Origin: a bacterium
GTDB lineage: Bacteria > Campylobacterota > Campylobacteria > Campylobacterales > Sulfurimonadaceae
DNA length: 33,402 nucleotides
Direction of reading: 5' to 3'
Assembly: GCA_018825665.1 (NCBI GenBank)
Contig: JAHJEG010000008.1
Location: 1-33,402, forward strand
Shown here: piece after piece, positions 9,138-19,602 of the stretch
Layout: each line of letters opens with the position of its first letter
How positions within the stretch are numbered: position 1 is the first letter of the stretch
Program-made: the position numbers and the translations under genes
Notes under the pieces: generated by a model
Databases searched by the model: none
Told to the model about the DNA's origin: nothing
The model's input: the letters and a program-made list of their open reading frames with translations, nothing else

Positions 9138-10130
9138 ATGTATTTAACAGATTTGAAGTTTTCATTGTGGGCAGATTTTATTGAAAGAGATTATTTGGAT
9201 AAAGAGTTTAAAGATTTGATTCATCAGGGAATTATAAACGGAGCCACTTCAAATCCGGCTATTTTTAAAAATGCGATTTTAAGTTCACCCGCCTATAAAG
9301 AACAGCTTTTGGCATTAAGCGCTCTAAGCCCTAAAGAAAAATATGAAGCACTTGCTGTTTTTGATATACAAAAAGCAGCAGATATTTTAACTCCCCTTTA
9401 TGAATCGGGTGATGACGGTTATGTAAGTATAGAAGTTGATCCCTATTTATGTGATGACGCAGATGCTACCATTGCCGAGGGGAAAAGACTTTTTAAAACT
9501 ATAGACAGAAAAAACGTAATGATAAAAGTGCCTGCGACCAAAGCCGGATATTTGGCGATGGAAGAATTGACGGCATGTGGAATTCCGGTCAATGCCACGC
9601 TTATTTTTTCAAAAGAGCAGGCTCTCTCCTGTGCCAGGGCATTTGAAGCCGGCGGTAAAAAACTGGCGAAGCAAGACCTAGAAAGCGTTGATACTGTTAT
9701 CAGTATCTTTGTGAGTCGTATCGACCGTGCCCTTGATTCCAAACTGGCACAAAAAGGTATAGACACGGCATTGAGCGGAATATACAACAGTGCTGATATC
9801 TATGCAGCGATAGAGGAGATGAAAGTCAAAGGGTGTCGCGCACTTTTTGCAAGCACGGGAGTAAAAGATGACTCCCTGCCTGCGCATTATTATATCGATG
9901 GACTTTTGGCATACAACAGTGTCAATACTGCACCGATAGATACGATTAAGGCCTTTCACGCAAATGGGAAGAAACTCGCGTATCTTCCAATCTCAGAAGA
10001 AACCATACAGAAGCATTTTGCAAAAATAGCAGAGGCGGATATAAACTTCGATGAGATTTTGGAGCAGCAGATTCATGATGGGCTTGAATCGTTTAAAGAT
10101 GCATTTAAAGATATACTGGAGTCTCTATGA
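9138..10130 (+). CDS. tal: Transaldolase
   Basis: This 330-residue enzyme of the non-oxidative pentose phosphate pathway transfers dihydroxyacetone units between sugar phosphates. The N-terminal LWADFIERDYL and NGATSNPAIFKNAI blocks, the MIKVPATKAGY block with the Schiff-base lysine, NATLIFS, and VDTVISIFVSRID define it. The frame is open from an ATG at 9096, but the start at 9138 is better. It has AGGA (9128-9131) six bases upstream, and the upstream region contains a -10 element. The stop overlaps the pilT start by four bases, an odd pairing of central metabolism with a motility ATPase. Confidence 0.94.
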   Translation: MYLTDLKFSLWADFIERDYLDKEFKDLIHQGIINGATSNPAIFKNAILSSPAYKEQLLALSALSPKEKYEALAVFDIQKAADILTPLYESGDDGYVSIEVDPYLCDDADATIAEGKRLFKTIDRKNVMIKVPATKAGYLAMEELTACGIPVNATLIFSKEQALSCARAFEAGGKKLAKQDLESVDTVISIFVSRIDRALDSKLAQKGIDTALSGIYNSADIYAAIEEMKVKGCRALFASTGVKDDSLPAHYYIDGLLAYNSVNTAPIDTIKAFHANGKKLAYLPISEETIQKHFAKIAEADINFDEILEQQIHDGLESFKDAFKDILESL

Positions 10131-11326
10131 ACACCCATGTGAACGATATTGACGTAAGCAAGCTGAGTTTTGAACAATTAAAAAAAATCAGATATTATCT
10201 CAAAAAAATGATTGAGAACGGGGGGAGTGATCTTCATGTCAAGGCAAACTCTGTAATTCGTGCAAGAATAAACGGCAATCTTATACAGTTCTCCGGGGGG
10301 ATACTTTCAAAAGACGATGCGATGACCTTTGCCAAAGAGCTCTTAAAAGGGAGATTTGCGGAATTTATCGAAAAAAAAGAGATAGATCTGGTCTATCCCT
10401 TTGATGAGTTGAATCGTTTTCGTGTGAATGTTTTTTTTCAGATGGACGGTATCTCAGCAGTTTTTCGTGTTATCCCGGTAAAGGTTCCCGCCTTTGAACA
10501 GCTCCATCTTCCTGATGTTTTGCGAGACTTCACAAAAAAAGAAAGAGGACTGGTTTTGGTGACGGGTGTAACTGGAAGCGGTAAATCAACTACCCTTGCC
10601 GCCTTGGTCAATGAAATAAACCTAACCCAAAAAAAGCACATCATTACCATAGAGGATCCTATCGAATTTGTTCACAAGGATAGAGGCTGCATCATAAACC
10701 AGCGCTCTGTAGGACAGGATACACTCTCCTTTGGTTCAGCTCTTAGAGCCGCTCTGCGTGAGGATCCCGATATTATTCTCGTAGGGGAGATGCGTGACCG
10801 AGAAACTATTAACTTGGCGCTTCATGCGGCAGATACGGGGCACCTTGTATTTTCAACCCTGCATACTATTGACGCCAAAGAGACGATTAACCGTATTATT
10901 GCGACCTTTCCCACAGAGGAACAAAACCGCGTTCGACTTTCACTGGCCGGTGTTATTCAGGGTGTAATCTCTCAGCGTCTAATCCCTACCGTGGATGGAG
11001 GACGACGTGCGGCTATGGAGATATTGGTCCGAACCCCTACGATTGAGAAGCTTATTATGGAGAACAGGGACTATGAGATTCGTGATGCGATTGAAAAAGG
11101 GAAAGAGCATTATAAGTCCCAAAGTTTTGATCAGTCTATTCTGGAACTCTACAATGAGGGGATTATCTCTAAAGAAAAAGCGAAAGATAATGCTACGAGT
11201 GCATCTGATATGGAACTTAGGATGAGCGGACTGACAAGCGGCAAAGTCTCTGACCAAAAATCTTCCGGAGATAATAACTCTAAGAGAGATAGTGCGGGTA
11301 ATGATGATATCTTCGATTTGAAGTAA
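10127..11326 (+). CDS. pilT: Type IV pilus retraction ATPase, PilT family
   Basis: A 399-residue secretion-type ATPase of the PilT family that powers pilus retraction at the inner membrane. It has Walker A GVTGSGKSTT at 147, the Asp box ITIEDPIEFVH, Walker B EDPDIILVGEMRD, and the His box GHLVFSTLHT. The core ends near residue 350. The last 45 or so residues are rich in Ser, Gly, Asn and Asp and look disordered. No pilin, PilB or PilC gene is nearby, so a role in twitching, DNA uptake or another retractile system depends on genes elsewhere. Its ATG overlaps the tal stop by four bases. Confidence 0.93.
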   Translation: MNTHVNDIDVSKLSFEQLKKIRYYLKKMIENGGSDLHVKANSVIRARINGNLIQFSGGILSKDDAMTFAKELLKGRFAEFIEKKEIDLVYPFDELNRFRVNVFFQMDGISAVFRVIPVKVPAFEQLHLPDVLRDFTKKERGLVLVTGVTGSGKSTTLAALVNEINLTQKKHIITIEDPIEFVHKDRGCIINQRSVGQDTLSFGSALRAALREDPDIILVGEMRDRETINLALHAADTGHLVFSTLHTIDAKETINRIIATFPTEEQNRVRLSLAGVIQGVISQRLIPTVDGGRRAAMEILVRTPTIEKLIMENRDYEIRDAIEKGKEHYKSQSFDQSILELYNEGIISKEKAKDNATSASDMELRMSGLTSGKVSDQKSSGDNNSKRDSAGNDDIFDLK

Positions 11327-11353
11327 AAATTTTAACAAACTTTAAAGCTTATT

Positions 11354-11363
11354 TAGATAAAAT
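11354..11363 (+). promoter_or_regulatory. -10-like element of the rplY promoter
   Basis: TAGATAAAAT, followed by TTCGCC, lies 30 bases before the rplY start in the 66-base gap after pilT. It resembles the element upstream of dut (GATAAAATAGGCG). It is a partial match to the consensus and no -35 is clear. Confidence 0.4.
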
Positions 11364-11392
11364 TTCGCCTATTTTTTATTTAAGGATTTACT

Positions 11393-11929
11393 ATGTTAGA
11401 AGGCATAATTAGAGAGAGTATTGGTAAGAAGGGTACGAAAGCGCTTCGCCGTGATGGTTATCTGATTGCAAACATTTACGGAAAAGGTCTTGAAAATGTT
11501 CATGCAGCATTTAAAGAAAATGAATATATCCGTACTGTTCGCAACAAAGATACTTTGGCATTCCCTGTTTTAGTGAGTGGTAAAGAGATGAATGTTGTTG
11601 TTCAAGCATATGAGTCACATGCAGTAACAGGTAAACTTTTACATGTTGATTTAATGGTAGCACAACCTGGTGTTGTAACGCATTATCATGTGCCTGTAGT
11701 ACCTGTAGGGAGCGCAGTCGGTCTTAAAAACAAAGGTCTTGTAAACGTTTCAAAACCTCGTTTAAGAGTGAAAGCTGCTATTGAAAACACTCCTAACTCA
11801 ATAGAAGTTGATGTAACTAAAATGGATGTTGGCGATTCTAAGCTTATCCGTGATTTAGCTAAAATCGAAAACGTTACATTCACAGATAGCGACCGCGTAT
11901 CTGTACTAAGTGTAATTAAAGCTAAGTAA
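11393..11929 (+). CDS. rplY: 50S ribosomal protein L25 (Ctc form)
   Basis: A 178-residue L25 of the long Ctc type: an N-terminal 5S rRNA-binding domain (about 1-92, with RRDGYLIANIYGKG) and a C-terminal beta domain (VPVVPVGSAVGLKNKG onward). It binds 5S rRNA in the large subunit. The start has AAGGA (11382-11386) six bases upstream. The coding sequence is less rich in internal restarts and more codon-biased than its neighbours, as expected for a ribosomal protein. pth starts two bases after the stop. The rplY-pth pairing is very common in bacteria and links translation functions. Confidence 0.97.
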   Translation: MLEGIIRESIGKKGTKALRRDGYLIANIYGKGLENVHAAFKENEYIRTVRNKDTLAFPVLVSGKEMNVVVQAYESHAVTGKLLHVDLMVAQPGVVTHYHVPVVPVGSAVGLKNKGLVNVSKPRLRVKAAIENTPNSIEVDVTKMDVGDSKLIRDLAKIENVTFTDSDRVSVLSVIKAK

Positions 11930-11931
11930 TT

Positions 11932-12486
11932 ATGCTCATAGTCGGACTAGGGAACCCTGGCTCCGTCTATGAAAAGACACGCCACAATATAGGCTTTATG
12001 GTAATAGACGAGCTTAAATCCCGTCACAATGCCTCTAAACTTTCCTCCTCTTTCAACGGTGAACTCTATAAATTTTCTGAACATTTTCTCTTAAAACCAC
12101 TTACGTATATGAACCTTTCTGGTGAATCGATTGTTACGGTTAAAAATTTTTATAAAATTGATAAAGTGCTGGTGATACATGATGATCTGGATCTGCCTTT
12201 TGGAACATTGAGATTTAAATTCGGCGGCGGTCACGGCGGACATAACGGGCTTAAATCAACGGATGAAAAAATATCAAAAAATTATATACGGGTGAGAATG
12301 GGGATAGGAAAACCTGAGCACAAGGGCGAAGTGGCTTCGTATGTCTTGAGCAATTTTTCGGCCGCAGAGGAAAAACATCTCGGCATGTGGATATCCGGCG
12401 CATGTGAAGCAGTGGAATATTTGTTAGACAACTCACTTGAAGATACAAGCTCTAAATATACAATTAAAAAATTTCAGCTAAAATAA
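11932..12486 (+). CDS. pth: Peptidyl-tRNA hydrolase
   Basis: A 184-residue enzyme that releases tRNA from prematurely dropped peptidyl-tRNA. Motifs are LIVGLGNPGSVYEKTRHNIGF at the N terminus with the catalytic His at about 21, KPLTYMNLSGE, VIHDDLDLPFG with the catalytic Asp, and GGGHGGHNGLKS. Length is normal. It starts two bases after rplY with no separate Shine-Dalgarno of note, so it probably depends on coupled translation. A permease gene follows after 30 bases. Confidence 0.97.
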   Translation: MLIVGLGNPGSVYEKTRHNIGFMVIDELKSRHNASKLSSSFNGELYKFSEHFLLKPLTYMNLSGESIVTVKNFYKIDKVLVIHDDLDLPFGTLRFKFGGGHGGHNGLKSTDEKISKNYIRVRMGIGKPEHKGEVASYVLSNFSAAEEKHLGMWISGACEAVEYLLDNSLEDTSSKYTIKKFQLK

Positions 12487-12516
12487 CATTCAACTTTTTA
12501 ATAGACTAGAGGTACC

Positions 12517-13587
12517 ATGTTAGCATTTAGATATATCTCTTTTCATTATTTAAAATACTTTTCAATCATCTTGCTTGCCCTGGTTTTGTTCCTGGTCGGA
12601 TTTGATTATATGGAAAATGCTGAAAAACTCTCAGAATCAGCCAACCTTGTTTTGATATATCTGGTGTACAAGTCTTTTTTTGCGATAGATATGCTTTTGC
12701 CCCTGGCGCTTATCTTTTCAATGATAAGTACAAAGATATTTTTAATCCGTTCAAATGCCCTTGTCTCTTTTTATTCACTCGGATATTCAAGAATAGATGT
12801 ACTGAGACCCTTTGTCGTGGTCTCAACTTCCATAATAATTCTATTTGTTTCTTTACATGCCTTGCCTAGCTTTTCAAGAGCGGACGAGTTTTCAAACAAT
12901 ATCCGTAAAAATGCCGAGTATCTGAGTCCTACGCGGGATCTTTTCTTTACCTATAAAGACCAGTACGTTTATTTTTCAAAAATGCTCCCGCTTCAGGAAA
13001 AAGCTGAAGATATCAGGGTCTTTACAGTGAAGGACAACTCTTTAAAAGAGGTTCTTGTAGCCTCTGAAGCCACATACAGGGATGAACACTGGTATATAAG
13101 AGAAACCGATATTATCACAAAGCCTGATGATCTTAGTTTTGAGTCGATGGGGATGAAGGTCACGAACAAGAAGGATCTAAAAATACTCGAAGGGTTCAGA
13201 CCGAAAATTCTTGACCAGGTCTATGAGGGGAAGGTCAATTTCACGATTAAAGATGCAATAGACGCGATATTTCTTCTTAAAGACCAAAATGTGAATATCA
13301 GCAGCATTAAAGGCGCCTTGTATAAAATCTTTGTTTATCCGTTTTTTGTCCCCTGTCTGGTGGTGATCATATTCTTTTTTGTCCCTATAAGTCCAAGATT
13401 TCTAAACGTTTCTTTGTTTAGTTTTGCCGCTATTTTGGCAACACTGCTCATCTGGGGGATTCTTTTTATGTTAATAGAATTATCGAACAATAAAATAATT
13501 TCAAGTGAGGTCGGTGTTTTGGCTCCTGTAATTATTTTATTTTTTGTTGCTTCCTGGCAATGGAGAAAATTTAGCTTAACAAAATAA
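12517..13587 (+). CDS. LptF/LptG (YjgP/YjgQ) family permease
   Basis: A 356-residue inner-membrane protein of the LptF/LptG family, which with LptB and LptC extracts lipopolysaccharide and passes it to the periplasmic bridge. The topology fits: three membrane segments in the first 120 residues (about 14-34, 50-72, 97-118), a periplasmic beta-rich domain (about 120-270), then three more (about 276-295, 300-322, 330-350). N-terminal features such as FDYMENAEKLSES and the block around SMISTKIFLIRSN are typical. Which of the two paralogues it is cannot be decided by eye. The start has AGAGG a few bases upstream. Gene order after pth matches Campylobacter jejuni as I recall it. Confidence 0.85.
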   Translation: MLAFRYISFHYLKYFSIILLALVLFLVGFDYMENAEKLSESANLVLIYLVYKSFFAIDMLLPLALIFSMISTKIFLIRSNALVSFYSLGYSRIDVLRPFVVVSTSIIILFVSLHALPSFSRADEFSNNIRKNAEYLSPTRDLFFTYKDQYVYFSKMLPLQEKAEDIRVFTVKDNSLKEVLVASEATYRDEHWYIRETDIITKPDDLSFESMGMKVTNKKDLKILEGFRPKILDQVYEGKVNFTIKDAIDAIFLLKDQNVNISSIKGALYKIFVYPFFVPCLVVIIFFFVPISPRFLNVSLFSFAAILATLLIWGILFMLIELSNNKIISSEVGVLAPVIILFFVASWQWRKFSLTK

Positions 13588-13624
13588 TGTTTTCGTGTCA
13601 TCTATAAAAATATAAGTACATTTT

Positions 13625-13633
13625 TGGTAGAAT
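13625..13633 (+). promoter_or_regulatory. Extended -10 promoter before lysA
   Basis: TGGTAGAAT is a TGn-extended -10 with one mismatch to TATAAT, 27 bases before the lysA start in the 73-base gap after the permease gene. It is the best candidate promoter for the long run from lysA to the GGDEF-EAL gene. No -35 is evident. Confidence 0.5.
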
Positions 13634-13660
13634 TGCAAAAAATATTAGTTAGGATTCTTA

Positions 13661-14869
13661 ATGATAAATTTTAAAGAATTAGCGAGTGAATATAAAACCC
13701 CTTTATACGTATATGATTTAGACTATATGACAGCGCAGTATAATGAGTTAAAAGAAGCTTTTAAAGGGAGAAAGTCCATCTTGGCCTACGCCGTAAAAGC
13801 AAACTCGAATTTAAGTGTCGTAAAGCATTTCGGAGATTTGGGAAGCGGAGCCGACTGTGTGTCTATAGGTGAGGTCAGACGTGCATTCTTAGCGGGAATT
13901 CCAAGTTATAAGATAATTTTTTCGGGTGTGGGAAAAAGCGACGATGAGATTCGTGAAGCTATACAAAAAGACATTCTTTATATCAACGTAGAAAGCGAAG
14001 CCGAGCTTAAAAGAGTTAACCTCATTGCAAAAGAACTCAAGGCAAAGTGCAGAATCAGTATAAGAGTCAACCCAAACATTGACCCTAAAACACACCCTTA
14101 TATCTCAACGGGACTGCATGACAACAAATTCGGAGTCGATATAGAAAGTGCAAAAAGAATGTATATTTTTGCCAATAACTCTGAAAATCTGGATCCGGTG
14201 GGTATTCACTTTCACATAGGCTCGCAGCTTACGGAACTGACTCCAATCAGAGAATCCGCGGAGATAGTCGCAGATATGCTGCGCTCCCTTTCAAATATAA
14301 AAATCGATTTGAAGTTTTTTGATATCGGAGGGGGTCTTGGCATCAAATATAATGATGAGACTACCATCAAACCCTACGATTATGCGCAAGCAATTCTTGG
14401 GACTTTGACCGCTCTTGACATTACGGTTATCTGTGAACCCGGAAGATTCCTCACGGCAAATGCAGGCTATTTTGTAACAAAGGTTCTCTATGAGAAACAA
14501 AACGGGGATAAAAAATTCGTAGTGGTTGATGGAGCTATGAATGATTTGCTCCGCCCGAGTCTTTACAATGCTTACCATAGAATTGAAGCGATTACCCAGA
14601 GCACGAAAGATGAGAGAAAAGTGGATATTGTAGGACCGGTTTGTGAGAGCGGTGACTTTCTTGCAAAAAACTATCTGCTTCCCGAGCTGGAGCATAACGA
14701 CCTGCTTGTCGTTCACAGTGCCGGAGCATATGGATTTGGTATGGGAAGCAACTACAATACAAGAGGCAGAAGTGCCGAAGTGGCGGTAAAAGATGGTCAG
14801 GCAAGACTGATTCGCAAGCGAGAGAGCTTTGAAGATCTCATCGCTTTGGAAAAAGACTATTTGATCTAA
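13661..14869 (+). CDS. lysA: Diaminopimelate decarboxylase
   Basis: This 402-residue fold-type III PLP enzyme converts meso-diaminopimelate to lysine. The Schiff-base lysine is Lys46 in YAVKANSN. Other family marks are GIHFHIGSQ, FFDIGGGLGI, CEPGRFLTA and the C-terminal GPVCESGDFLAK, where Cys and Glu from the partner subunit complete the active site. A TTAGGA ribosome site ends six bases before the ATG. It begins the block lysA-HAD-pheA-hisC-fliF-fliG-fliH-dxs. A weak hairpin after its stop has no T tract, so transcription probably continues. Confidence 0.97.
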   Translation: MINFKELASEYKTPLYVYDLDYMTAQYNELKEAFKGRKSILAYAVKANSNLSVVKHFGDLGSGADCVSIGEVRRAFLAGIPSYKIIFSGVGKSDDEIREAIQKDILYINVESEAELKRVNLIAKELKAKCRISIRVNPNIDPKTHPYISTGLHDNKFGVDIESAKRMYIFANNSENLDPVGIHFHIGSQLTELTPIRESAEIVADMLRSLSNIKIDLKFFDIGGGLGIKYNDETTIKPYDYAQAILGTLTALDITVICEPGRFLTANAGYFVTKVLYEKQNGDKKFVVVDGAMNDLLRPSLYNAYHRIEAITQSTKDERKVDIVGPVCESGDFLAKNYLLPELEHNDLLVVHSAGAYGFGMGSNYNTRGRSAEVAVKDGQARLIRKRESFEDLIALEKDYLI

Positions 14870-14921
14870 GCCGTAGTATGGCTTTATGGCTAAAAAAAGA
14901 GAAGATGCAAGAGGAGTTTAG

Positions 14922-15698
14922 TTGTACTTTATAGATGTTCAGGGCACGTTGATAAGTGACGAAGATAAGACTCCCATCCGTGGAAGCATAGAATTTATCG
15001 ATATGCTTAATGAAAAACAGATACCTTATATGGTGATTACAAACAATACGAAAAACCAGTCAAAAGATTTTTATGCCTATTTAAAAAAACTAGGATTCAA
15101 TTTTGAGTTTTCATCATATCTCGACCCTCTGATGATCATGGAGCTTCATGTTGAAAAATCAGGTGTTGCAGCATACGGATCCAAAGAGTTTTTAGAGGGG
15201 CTGGTGAAGATGGGGTATCAGCTCGATTATGAGAATCCCAAGACGGTCTTGCTCTCAATAAAAGAGGATTTCGTCAATGATGAATTCGCCCAGATGATAG
15301 ATTTTATACTCAAGGGTGCCAAACTTGTGGGTATGCATGAAACATCCATATATGCAAAAAACTCTAAAAGATATCCCGGTGTCGGAGCTATACTCAAAAT
15401 GCTTGAATTTGCCACTTCATGCACATACAGCGTAGTCGGCAAGCCGAGCATCGCATTTTATGAAGAATCATTACACAGGCTTGGCAAACAGGTACCCGAT
15501 ATCAAGTTTGGTGATATTACGATTATCAGCGATGATGTAAAAGGTGATTTGGGCGGAGCCAAGGAGATGGGGATGCAAACGGTTTTTGTACTTAGCGGCA
15601 AATATAAAAGTGCAGAAGAGATTGTTCCTTTTTTAAAAGAGGAACTGCAACCCGACTTCGTTTACGCTGATATGCAAGAAATTTTGGAGACACTATGA
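14922..15698 (+). CDS. HAD-superfamily protein, NagD-like, with altered motif I
   Basis: A 258-residue HAD-fold protein with a NagD-type cap. The nucleophile position is Asp5, but motif I reads DVQGT, so the usual acid/base Asp two residues later is Gln7. Motif II (ITNNT), the motif III lysine region (VGKPS) and motif IV (ISDDVKGDLGGAKE) look complete. Substrate unknown, and phosphatase activity is doubtful given Gln7. The start is TTG: GAGGAG (14911-14916) sits five bases upstream, and the nearby ATG at 14904 is out of frame and stops quickly. The stop overlaps the pheA start by four bases. From memory, Campylobacter jejuni has a HAD gene (Cj0315) in the same place. Confidence 0.88.
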   Translation: MYFIDVQGTLISDEDKTPIRGSIEFIDMLNEKQIPYMVITNNTKNQSKDFYAYLKKLGFNFEFSSYLDPLMIMELHVEKSGVAAYGSKEFLEGLVKMGYQLDYENPKTVLLSIKEDFVNDEFAQMIDFILKGAKLVGMHETSIYAKNSKRYPGVGAILKMLEFATSCTYSVVGKPSIAFYEESLHRLGKQVPDIKFGDITIISDDVKGDLGGAKEMGMQTVFVLSGKYKSAEEIVPFLKEELQPDFVYADMQEILETL

Positions 15699-16777
15699 AA
15701 ACTTTAGATGAATGTAGAGCTGCTATTGACAGTATTGACAATGAGATGCTGAGACTTTTAAACAAAAGAATGAAAGTTGTTGAAAGAGTAGGTGAGATCA
15801 AACACGACACCGGAACTGCAGTATACAGACCTGAGAGAGAAAAAGAGATTATTGAAAGACTGACTAAACTCAGCAAAGAGGAAAACGGCGCTTTGAACAA
15901 GGGCGCGATTGAAGCCATATATTTGGAAATATTTGCGGTTGCCAGAAACCTTGAATTGCCGGAGCGTATAGCATTTTTAGGACCGGAGGGGAGCTTTACG
16001 CATCAGGCCGCTGAGAGCAGATTTGGCGGGATGAGTGATTATCTCTCTTTAGGCTCCATCCACTCTGTGTTTAAAACTCTTGAGGCCAAACGTGCAAAAT
16101 TCGGAGTTGTGCCGATAGAAAACTCCAGAGACGGAATAGTGGGAGAAACACTCGATCTGCTTGCTAAGAGCTCGGTTAAAATCGTAGCTGAACTGTATAT
16201 GCCAATACATATGGCATTTGCGACAAAAGCAAGACGACTGGAAGATATAACAAAAATCTATTCAAAAGACAAAGGTTTTGGACAGTGTAGAGAATTTTTG
16301 CAAGAACACGGCTTTGTAAATGTTGAACAGATTCCGGTTGAATCAACGGCAAAAGCGGCAATATTGGCAGCCAAAGACCCGCAAGCCGCAGCAATCTGTT
16401 CCCACATCGCAGCCAAACTTTACAGAGTTCCTACGATGTTTGAAAATATAGAGGATCAGCATGACAGCAGCACGAGATTTGTAATCTTGAGCGATTTTAA
16501 AAATGGGATAAGCAGTGATGACAAAACATCTATCCTGGTACGATTAAAAGACGCAGTCGAACCTGGTTCCCTTGTACATTTTTTACAGGATTTTGACAGA
16601 GAAAATATCAATCTTTCTAAAATAGAATCTCGTCCTTCAAAAGATCAAAGCGGTTTTGGGTATTGGTTCTTTATGGATCTGTACGGGCATATAGACGATG
16701 AAAAAATTCAAAGAGTGCTCTCCTTGCATGAGGGTGAAGTGACATGGCTTGGAAGCTATGCAAAAGGTGAATTATGA
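15695..16777 (+). CDS. pheA: Bifunctional chorismate mutase/prephenate dehydratase
   Basis: A 360-residue bifunctional enzyme turning chorismate into prephenate and then phenylpyruvate for phenylalanine synthesis. The order is chorismate mutase (about 1-88, with the buried helix containing [16 protein letters not shown]), prephenate dehydratase (about 90-270, with [25 protein letters not shown] and DSSTRFV), and a C-terminal ACT domain (about 280-355) with the ESRPS block that binds phenylalanine for feedback inhibition. It overlaps the HAD gene and hisC by four bases on each side, indicating coupled translation. hisC next door may supply the final transamination as well as its histidine role. 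Confidence 0.97.
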
Positions 16778-17868
16778 AATTTAATAAACATTTAGAGTCG
16801 ATAAAAACATACGAGGCCGGAAAGCCGATAGAACTGGTGGTTCGTGAATTTGGCATAGAGCCAAAAGATATAGTAAAGCTCGCCAGCAATGAGAATCCTT
16901 ACGGCTGTTCACAAAAAGTCAAAGATGCGGTCAGTCATATAGTTTCAAACATGGCCTTGTATCCGGATGATTCCATGATTAAGCTTAAGAGTGCGCTGGG
17001 TTCCCGCTTCGATGTAGAAAACGGGAATATTATTATAGGTTCGGGAAGCGATCAGGTTATAGAGTTTGCTATACATGCCAAAACAAATGCATCTTCAAAA
17101 ATACTGATGAACAGCGTCACTTTTGCCATGTATGAAATATACGCTAAACACGTCGGTGCCGAGGTTATCCGAACAGCTTCACAAAAACATGACCTGGATG
17201 AGTTTTATGCCGCCTACGTAAAGCATAAACCGCAAATGATATTTTTGTGTACGCCTAATAATCCTACGGGGGATGCTATTGATGCCTCAGAACTGTTTGC
17301 ATTTTTGGAAAAAATCGACAGCGAAACCTTGGTTGTTGTGGATGGCGCATATATGGAATATGCAATACTAAAAGATGCAAGTAAAAAAGTACAGCCAAAA
17401 GAGCTTATAGAGAAGTTTGACAATGTCCTTTATCTTGGTACCTTTTCAAAGGCTTACGGGCTTGGAGGCATGAGAGTCGGCTATGGGATAAGCAGTGAAA
17501 AAATTATAAATGAACTCTATAAACTCAGACCGCCTTTTAATATAACGACCCTTTCTCTTGAAGCGGCAACTGTTGCTCTTAGTGATGAAGAATTTGTAAA
17601 TAAAAGTATAGTTAGCAATTTTGAGGAGATGAAACGTTACGAAGAGTTTGCAAATGAGAATAAAATAGATATAATAGAGAGTTATACAAATTTTGTAACT
17701 TTATGCCTGAACGAGGCTCAAAATTCGACTCATATCTCAAATGAACTTCTCAAGCAGGGGATGATAGTCAGAAATCTGAGCAGTTATAACTTGAATGCCA
17801 TCAGAGTCACTGTTGGTAAAAAAGAGCAGAATGACCGCTTCTTTGAACTTGTTTCAAAACTAATATAA
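16774..17868 (+). CDS. hisC: Histidinol-phosphate aminotransferase
   Basis: This 364-residue fold-type I aminotransferase makes histidinol phosphate. Related enzymes next to pheA can also use aromatic substrates. Key blocks are LASNENPYG near the N terminus, [17 protein letters not shown], and [17 protein letters not shown] containing the PLP lysine. The start overlaps the pheA stop by four bases. No other his genes are near, and the position after pheA suggests a broad-specificity enzyme serving phenylalanine or tyrosine too (inference). fliF starts 12 bases downstream. Confidence 0.93.
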
Positions 17869-17880
17869 AATGGGAAATTG

Positions 17881-19602
17881 ATGGATTTTAAGGTACTTTT
17901 TTCGCAGTTAGTTGTTTTATACACTAAGTTAACCAAACAGCAAAAAATCATAATAGCTGGTGCAGTAATAGGCATCATCTCGTTTTTGATTTTTATGGTT
18001 TTGTATACTGCAAAAAAGAATTCACAAAACAGTTATGAAATACTTTTTGATTCACTCAACCCCGCAGATGCCGCAAAAGTTGTAGAGCAGCTTGAAAAAG
18101 ACAATATCCCCTATGAAATCCATGACAACAATGTCATCAAAGTCCCGAGGGATGTCGTATACAAACAGAGGATTTCCATAGCGGCTCAGGGAATCCCAAA
18201 AAACAGCGGTGTAGGTTTTGAACTTTTTGATAAACAGGAGTTCGGTGCTACGAGTTTTGATCAAAATGTAAAACTTCTTCGTGCCTTGGAAGGAGAACTT
18301 TCCCGTACCATCAATGCGCTTGGACCTATTGAAAGTGCCAGTGTCAGTCTTGCCTTGCCAAAAGAAACACTTTTTGTTTCAAAAGAAGTGGAACCGACTG
18401 CTTCGATCATGGTTAGTTTGGTAGATGGAAGAACTCTCTCTGCCAAGCAGATCAGAGGGATTAAAAACCTGGTTGCTTCTGCCGTGCCAAAATTAAAATT
18501 ATCAAATGTGATGCTTGTCAACAGTGAAGGCGAGACATTGGGCGATGAGGATGAGATGGCGCAGATGGGCGAGCTCTCAGCCGTACAGCAAAAGTATAAG
18601 CTTAAAGAGGAAAAAAAGAGACAGCAGAAAATAATGCAGGTTATCTCCCCTTTTGTAGGCGGTCAAGACAAGGTTGTAGCACAGGTCACGATAGAGTTCG
18701 ATTTTTCAATCCAAAATTCCACCTCTGAGACATTTGATCCGGAAAACGTGGTCAGAAGCGAGCAGATAAGCGAGGAAAAAAGAGAAGGTGCTACTCCGCC
18801 TCAAGTCGGAGGCGTTCCGGGAACCGTCAGCAATATCGGTCCTGTCCAGGGTCTTGCCAGCAATCAGACCAGTGAAAAGTATGAAAAAAACACAGGAACA
18901 ACCAACTACGAAATCGGCAAAACAGTTTCAACAACCAAATCACAGTTTGCCAGAATCAAAAGAATCACCGCTGCTGTAATGGTAGACGGAAAGTATAAGA
19001 AAAAATTGGCAGAAGACGGTACGGAAACAGACGAATTTGAATATACGGCTTTGGATGATGCGGATATGGAAGCCGTTACCTCGCTTGTGAGCCGTTCAAT
19101 AGGAATTGATGAGGCTAGAGGCGATGAAATCTCTGTAAGAAATCTGCAATTCAAAAGAGAAAACATCGGTGCAAGTCCGGATGGTGTAAGTCAGGCGATA
19201 ACATTCAGCGAGACTTATCTGGCACCTTTTTCAGGATTGTTCAAGTACCTTTTTGTTCTTATCCTGCTTCTTGTCGTGTATAAAAAAGTTATCTCTCCAT
19301 TTGCACAAAAAATGCTTGAGGTATCAAAAGAGGAAGATGAACTTGCAAAACCTACTCTTGATTTGGATAATGATGAAGAGGAAGATTTGGTAGAAAAGGT
19401 ACAGGCTATGAGGAAAAAAGTTGAAGACCAGCTTGGCGTGGGTGAGGGCTTCAATGAGGATGAACTGAAATACGATGTGCTTCTTGAAAAAGTTAGGACA
19501 ATGGCTGAAGATACGCCAGAAGAGATCGCATCACTTCTTCAGGCATTGTTGAGCGAAGAATCAGACGGCACACATCCTCCTAAAGCAGAAAAGGGTAAAT
19601 AA
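17881..19602 (+). CDS. fliF: Flagellar MS-ring protein FliF
   Basis: A 573-residue MS-ring subunit that builds the base of the flagellar rotor in the inner membrane. One membrane helix lies near the N terminus (about 23-46) and a second near 453-470. Between them are the ring-building domains (for example RISIAAQGIPKNSGVGFE and GPIESASVSLALP), plus a region rich in Gly, Thr and Asn. After the second helix an acidic cytoplasmic tail (about 480-573) binds FliG. A TTG lies one codon ahead of the ATG; the ATG is preferred with GGGAAA upstream. It sits in a housekeeping run and overlaps fliG by one base. Confidence 0.96.
   Translation: MDFKVLFSQLVVLYTKLTKQQKIIIAGAVIGIISFLIFMVLYTAKKNSQNSYEILFDSLNPADAAKVVEQLEKDNIPYEIHDNNVIKVPRDVVYKQRISIAAQGIPKNSGVGFELFDKQEFGATSFDQNVKLLRALEGELSRTINALGPIESASVSLALPKETLFVSKEVEPTASIMVSLVDGRTLSAKQIRGIKNLVASAVPKLKLSNVMLVNSEGETLGDEDEMAQMGELSAVQQKYKLKEEKKRQQKIMQVISPFVGGQDKVVAQVTIEFDFSIQNSTSETFDPENVVRSEQISEEKREGATPPQVGGVPGTVSNIGPVQGLASNQTSEKYEKNTGTTNYEIGKTVSTTKSQFARIKRITAAVMVDGKYKKKLAEDGTETDEFEYTALDDADMEAVTSLVSRSIGIDEARGDEISVRNLQFKRENIGASPDGVSQAITFSETYLAPFSGLFKYLFVLILLLVVYKKVISPFAQKMLEVSKEEDELAKPTLDLDNDEEEDLVEKVQAMRKKVEDQLGVGEGFNEDELKYDVLLEKVRTMAEDTPEEIASLLQALLSEESDGTHPPKAEKGK

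Follow-up and report, generated by a model that had tools for sequence, protein, structure and literature searches.

A HAD-IIA protein of Campylobacterales with glutamine fixed in place of the second motif I aspartate

The DxD signature of motif I is the usual ground for regarding a HAD protein as a phosphatase. The window analyzed here, the whole stretch of 33,402 nucleotides of a bacterium of the Sulfurimonadaceae (GenBank assembly GCA_018825665.1, contig JAHJEG010000008.1, positions 1 to 33,402 of the forward strand), encodes a HAD protein whose motif I reads DVQGT, and it raises the question whether a HAD protein with Gln in place of the second Asp still acts as an enzyme and, if so, on which kind of bond. 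The motif and its Gln7 had been pointed out in an earlier note, and both were confirmed; the ORF lies exactly at 14922-15698 on the plus strand. The positions of the gene, of its motifs, and of the neighboring ORFs, which we take to be lysA, pheA, and hisC, are compiled in Table 1.

Table 1. Positions of the DxQ HAD gene, its motifs, and its neighbors in the window
Feature	Position	Strand	Remarks
CDS of the DxQ HAD-IIA protein	14922..15698	+	258 aa, TTG start, TGA stop
Likely ribosome-binding site AGAGGAG	14910..14916	+	5 nt 5' of the TTG; read from the sequence
Motif I DVQGT, residues 5-9	14934..14948	+	nucleophile Asp5; Gln7 replaces the acid/base Asp
Gln7 codon CAG	14940-14942	+	within motif I
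Asp13, loop after motif I	14958..14960	+	candidate replacement acid/base
Motif II Thr40 (TNNTK)	15039..15041	+	Thr40 in 184/184 intact orthologues
Cap stretch M138-A145 (MHETSIYA)	15333..15356	+	possible substrate-specificity loop
Motif III Lys174	15441..15443	+	in 184/184 intact orthologues
Motif IV Ser203-Asp204-Asp205-...-Asp209	15528..15548	+	Ser203 (15528-15530) for the usual Gly
lysA (diaminopimelate decarboxylase)	13661..14869	+	upstream neighbor; beside the HAD gene in most loci
pheA (chorismate mutase / prephenate dehydratase)	15695..16777	+	4-nt overlap with the HAD gene (15695-15698)
hisC	16774..17868	+	downstream of pheA

The product of this ORF is a C2-capped HAD-IIA protein of the NagD/HDHD2/LHPP group. 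It matched Pfam Hydrolase_6 (56.9 bits, cut-off 27) and Hydrolase_like (47.4 bits, cut-off 22), and among the NCBI family models scored it passed the cut-off of TIGR01460 (HAD-IIA) only (118 bits, cut-off 100.15). Scores remained below the cut-offs of TIGR01458 (HAD-SF-IIA-hyp3; 106.9 versus 175.95 bits), TIGR01457 (75.1 versus a curated 247.65 bits), and the NagD-type model PRK10444 (54.7 versus a curated 368 bits). Across 12 genomes, 10 orthologues were found, that of the window among them, and their TIGR01458 scores ranged from 69.4 to 108.8. At E ≤ 1e-10, each of the 28 members of alignment A2 matched several subfamily models in addition to the general HAD-IIA one. An AlphaFold2 model of the window protein (mean pLDDT 95.6, pTM 0.90) matched HAD-IIA structures over the full length, with the C2 cap inserted into a Rossmann core; comparison with 1wvi, 2c4n (NagD), 3hlt and 2ho4 (both HDHD2), and 2x4d (LHPP) gave Z scores of 26.0 to 29.6 and rmsd values of 2.6 to 3.6 Å over 242 to 245 residues.

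The conservation of residue 7 was determined at 186 orthologous loci (L001-L186; L001 is the gene of the window itself, and some contigs are present twice, under a G handle and under their name). Gln7 was found in all 126 loci collected first, among them that of the window, and in all 60 farther loci; it is also present in five further loci (L249-L253), all of which read DVQGT. After omission of two broken genes (L164, L180), 184 intact proteins remained, corresponding to 165 distinct sequences and 108 clusters at 80%, with a lowest identity to the window protein of 45%. Without exception, these 184 proteins contain D5, Q7, G8, T9, T40, N41, K174, S203, D204, D205, G208, and D209. Thus, all of them depart from the canonical DxD by a Gln at the second position, and all keep the Asp nucleophile, the Thr of motif II, the Lys of motif III, and the acidic motif IV. 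An alignment at residue 7 had been set beforehand as the check on this point, and it contained no orthologue with Asp; the description of the protein as a conserved but altered HAD was borne out. A private change or sequencing error as the origin of Gln7 was ruled out by its presence in 186/186 loci and 184/184 intact proteins.

The assertion of the earlier note that the other motifs remain was correct for the catalytic residues and has to be amended for motif IV. At position 203, Ser was present in 184/184 orthologues in place of the usual Gly, which was found in all 32 comparison proteins (20/20 TIGR01458-type proteins of the same order and 12/12 HAD-IIA references). Ser203 is therefore a second fixed active-site change beside Gln7. 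Position 13 is Asp in 184/184 orthologues, Gly in 20/20 TIGR01458-type proteins, and Gly, Asp, or Glu in nine, two, and one of the 12 references, respectively; compared with the references, the orthologues have two extra residues in the loop that follows motif I, and the column match of Asp13 is thus uncertain. In the cap, His139 (181/184) and Tyr144 (184/184) lie in a stretch unlike the NRYF-like one of the TIGR01458-type proteins; His at position 139 also occurs in three of the 12 references. Together with Lys44 (182/184), Tyr66, Asp68, and Phe90, the residues Asp13, His139, and Tyr144 mark the family and are mostly different in the comparison proteins.

The DxQ HAD gene is under purifying selection, with a weaker constraint than that on lysA. 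For six Sulfurimonas orthologues, dN/dS values of 0.05 to 0.12 were obtained (nine of 15 pairs with finite dS, several of them near saturation), and for six genomes whose locus has neither hisC nor the prephenate dehydratase part of pheA (see below) the values ranged from 0.04 to 0.24 (15 pairs). The lysA values in the same genomes were 0.03 to 0.05 for Sulfurimonas and 0.05 to 0.13 for the six, those of the HAD gene being mostly higher. The invariance of D5, T40, K174, D204, and D209 alongside Q7 indicates that the site is kept rather than decaying; for the intact copies, a decaying gene was ruled out by the invariant catalytic residues and the low dN/dS values.

Loss of the second Asp has precedents in LHPP (Ser), HDHD2 (Asn/Ser), and the TIGR01458-type proteins (Gly), and the DxQ protein is a real variant of a known family. 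Among solved structures, HDHD2 (2ho4) was the best profile match (E = 4.5e-31). As in the window protein, its residue at +2 is not Asp (DLNG in mouse and DLSG in human in the profile alignments), and His and Tyr occupy the matching cap positions in the 2ho4 alignment; however, identity over the structural alignments is only 24 to 26% (23% for one chain), motif IV has Gly, and the +2 residue is Asn or Ser rather than Gln. Among four papers listed for HDHD2, none showed an activity of this protein in its entry. LHPP (2x4d) shares the C2-capped HAD-IIA fold (Z 26.0, rmsd 3.2 Å, 245 residues) and has also lost the second Asp, but differs by its overall sequence (23% identity), its motif IV Gly, and its cap stretch. 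According to a review, LHPP, with Ser at +2, dephosphorylates phospholysine, phosphohistidine, pyrophosphate, and imidophosphate; its action on proteins is doubted there (PMC11277029). The TIGR01458-type proteins of the same order are HAD-IIA proteins with a motif I that is mostly DIGG and without the second Asp, but they form a separate clade in the tree described below, and the window protein scores below the cut-off of that model. In the 20 TIGR01458-type loci (L187-L206), the residue at +2 was Gly in 17 cases and Ala, Ser, and Asp in one case each, and 11 of the 11 proteins scored exceeded the TIGR01458 cut-off. NagD and NagD-like proteins (2c4n, Z 27.6; 1wvi, Z 29.6) resemble the window protein in overall fold and in the other catalytic residues, whereas 1wvi and E. 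coli NagD (L246) have the canonical second Asp, the latter together with a motif IV Gly.

A maximum-likelihood tree was calculated from 35 orthologues, the 20 TIGR01458-type proteins, and 12 HAD-IIA references, which derived from plasmid records and were picked for spread among 40 listed of 85 records. In this tree, which has no outgroup and contains several long branches, all 35 DxQ proteins fell on one side of a branch with a support of 100/100 and grouped largely by family code. Residue 7 in the tree rows was Gln in 35/35 orthologues and Asp in 11 of the 12 references (Ser in the other one), with the TIGR01458-type residues as given above. Because the orthologues in the tree all lie on one side of this branch, the distribution would be explained most simply by one ancestral change to Gln within the order, followed by vertical inheritance and many gene losses.

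A genome collection contained 110 relatives of the window's genome, of which the best 80 were kept. HAD matches were found in 47 of 60 relatives searched. In a wider set of 298 genomes, all labeled as the same order or nearer, 129 had a HAD match, which was only a distant one in eight, and 120 had an orthologue at E ≤ 1e-30. Three of these 120 were broken (G269, G291, G334), as was another orthologue with a weaker score (G242); broken copies were seen at four loci (L164, L180, L254, L255). No orthologue was found in any of the 89 genomes with family code f14, and in genus code g29 it was present in 38/38 genomes, one of them with the broken copy of G291. Since the gene is missing from many genomes and broken at four loci, its function is dispensable.

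The earlier note had described the gene as coupled to pheA, which holds in most loci: the two genes overlap in 158 of the 181 loci having both, the commonest overlap being 4 nt (114 loci). The start codon nearest to the expected place was ATG in 115, TTG in 54, and GTG in 16 of the 186 loci, one broken copy having none. The coupling seems to reflect co-expression rather than membership in a common pathway, because the HAD gene is kept without the prephenate dehydratase part and hisC in some genomes and lies away from lysA and pheA in others. The former is the case in six g29 genomes (G138, G159, G167, G214, G238, G261) that have an intact HAD gene without either alongside. At their loci (L179, L249-L253), the pheA match covered residues 1 to 87 only, about the chorismate mutase domain; at L249, a pheA match of residues 1 to 94 ran through a stop. 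The best pheA and hisC matches anywhere in these genomes were weak (E = 3e-6 to 1e-15). In 6/6 of them, the HAD frame is intact with DVQGT and adjoins lysA.

At L134 and L145, both with both flanks in view, the HAD gene lies away from lysA and pheA. Two loci near contig ends were also recorded: L183 has no pheA after the HAD gene and little upstream sequence, and L186 has no lysA before it and little downstream sequence. Inspection by eye revealed no common neighbor of the HAD gene in L134, L145, L183, and L186.

Conversely, pheA matches were found in 298/298 genomes (in 35 cases with E values above 1e-30), whereas only 120 have the HAD orthologue. In 20 HAD-less genomes, which were hand-chosen rather than random and all have strong pheA and hisC matches, the aligned ends of lysA and pheA are separated by 5 to 147 nt in 20/20 cases, and no HAD match below E = 1 was detected in them. 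In one genome, a second hisC match (G016:C42:120-1211, 77% identity) was about as strong as the pheA-adjacent one; the same genome has two pheA matches and may contain a duplicated or mixed contig. The proposed tie to aromatic metabolism was not supported, given the six genomes that keep the HAD gene and the 20 in which lysA and pheA abut without it, and a tie to aromatic or histidine synthesis is weakened. The proposed lysine link is only weakened, because lysA still adjoins the HAD gene in all six genomes. We take the Campylobacter orthologue to be Cj0315; a literature search, with subscription papers outside its coverage, retrieved neither Cj0315 by name nor a Campylobacter jejuni 'HAD-superfamily hydrolase' of 'subfamily IIA', whereas Cj0314, Cj0316, or Cj0317 was named in two papers.

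The most likely of the readings, to which we give about an even chance, is an active phosphohydrolase whose acid/base chemistry is altered and whose targets are perhaps P-N bonds or other labile ones. As the kept motifs suggest, Asp5 would attack the phosphate, Mg2+ would be held by Asp5, Asp204, and Asp209, and Thr40 and Lys174 would assist. In HAD phosphatases, the second Asp serves as general acid/base, as stated in two papers (PMC12715507, PMC11084212). Gln7 can form hydrogen bonds but cannot donate a proton; therefore, the substrate would probably have a leaving group that needs no acid at +2, or another residue would supply the proton. In the former case, a P-N bond, an acyl phosphate, or a pyrophosphate might be cleaved; alternatively, the conserved Asp13, Lys44, or His139 may give the proton and activate water. 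Phospho-Asp5 would be formed from substrates with good leaving groups, and its hydrolysis would be slow or aided by another residue. Such an enzyme may act on a small metabolite in a side reaction or in repair; this role would be of use without being essential, and it would not be a step of aromatic or histidine synthesis.

Gln7 could also mean very low activity, because in the D10N variant of beta-phosphoglucomutase the carboxamide mimics a protonated Asp, passes no proton to the leaving group, and holds substrate complexes (PMC11283535). A CARF-HAD protein that reportedly exerts toxicity without need of the conserved HAD residues (PMC12715507) is a reminder that motifs alone may leave the activity of a HAD protein unsettled.

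Among the alternatives, a pseudo-phosphatase survives best, though we consider it doubtful: the protein would bind a phosphorylated ligand in the kept Mg2+ site with hardly any turnover and act as a sensor or partner, for example of a neighboring enzyme. The loss of the acid/base residue, the frequent overlap with pheA, the position next to lysA, which persists even where prephenate dehydratase and hisC are missing (six genomes), and the weaker constraint relative to lysA are consistent with it. However, pure binding need not keep the nucleophile and the motif III Lys, both invariant in 184/184 proteins, and a partner of the neighboring enzymes fits poorly with the retention of the HAD gene where prephenate dehydratase and hisC are gone and with its separation from lysA and pheA at L134 and L145.

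A rebuilt HAD chemistry also appears unlikely. Here, Gln7 and Ser203 would work together with an acid at a new place, either Asp13 of the lengthened loop or His139 of the cap. The outcome would be a hydrolase of P-N bonds or acyl phosphates that only these bacteria have, or a metabolic switch based on a long-lived phospho-Asp5.

Less probable still is a phospho-aspartate switch or phosphotransferase in its own right, in which the phosphoryl group would be released slowly from Asp5, as Gln cannot activate water, and the long-lived form would signal or pass the group on. P-type ATPases have Thr at +2 and form a long-lived phospho-Asp, and the acid/base role of the second Asp and the substrate complexes held by the D10N carboxamide, both referred to above, point in the same direction. 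Against this, a C2 cap suits small substrates, and no kinase or receiver gene was recognized among the ORFs of 10127-19602, named as we take them to be.

An ordinary NagD-type HAD-IIA phosphatase that tolerates Gln7 and has broad activity on common phosphomonoesters is likewise improbable. NagD-type structures, such as the DxD-bearing 1wvi, are among the best structural matches, and the TIGR01460 cut-off is exceeded; however, Gln is fixed rather than drifting (184/184), and it is accompanied by changes in motif IV and in the cap stretch.

Least likely of all is a pathway enzyme that serves the synthesis of aromatic compounds, histidine, or lysine, such as a missing histidinol-phosphate phosphatase. 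The gene sits among lysA, pheA, and hisC. Moreover, of three TIGR01656 matches in the window's genome, the single one to exceed the cut-off adjoins what we take to be a gmhA-like ORF and may act on a heptose phosphate rather than on histidinol phosphate. However, the HAD gene is kept in the six genomes that lack prephenate dehydratase and hisC, and many genomes in which pheA and hisC match strongly do not have it; 20 of the latter were inspected.

As an apparently vertically inherited subfamily under purifying selection, in which a motif IV change is paired with that of motif I, the DxQ proteins represent a natural experiment on the need for the second Asp. Taken together with LHPP, HDHD2, and the TIGR01458-type proteins, they suggest repeated loss of this residue within the capped HAD-IIA group, with the remainder of the active site being retained. 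If the DxQ protein is active, as in the preferred reading of a phosphohydrolase with altered acid/base chemistry, it would indicate that Sulfurimonas and related bacteria perform a phosphate chemistry not yet on record.
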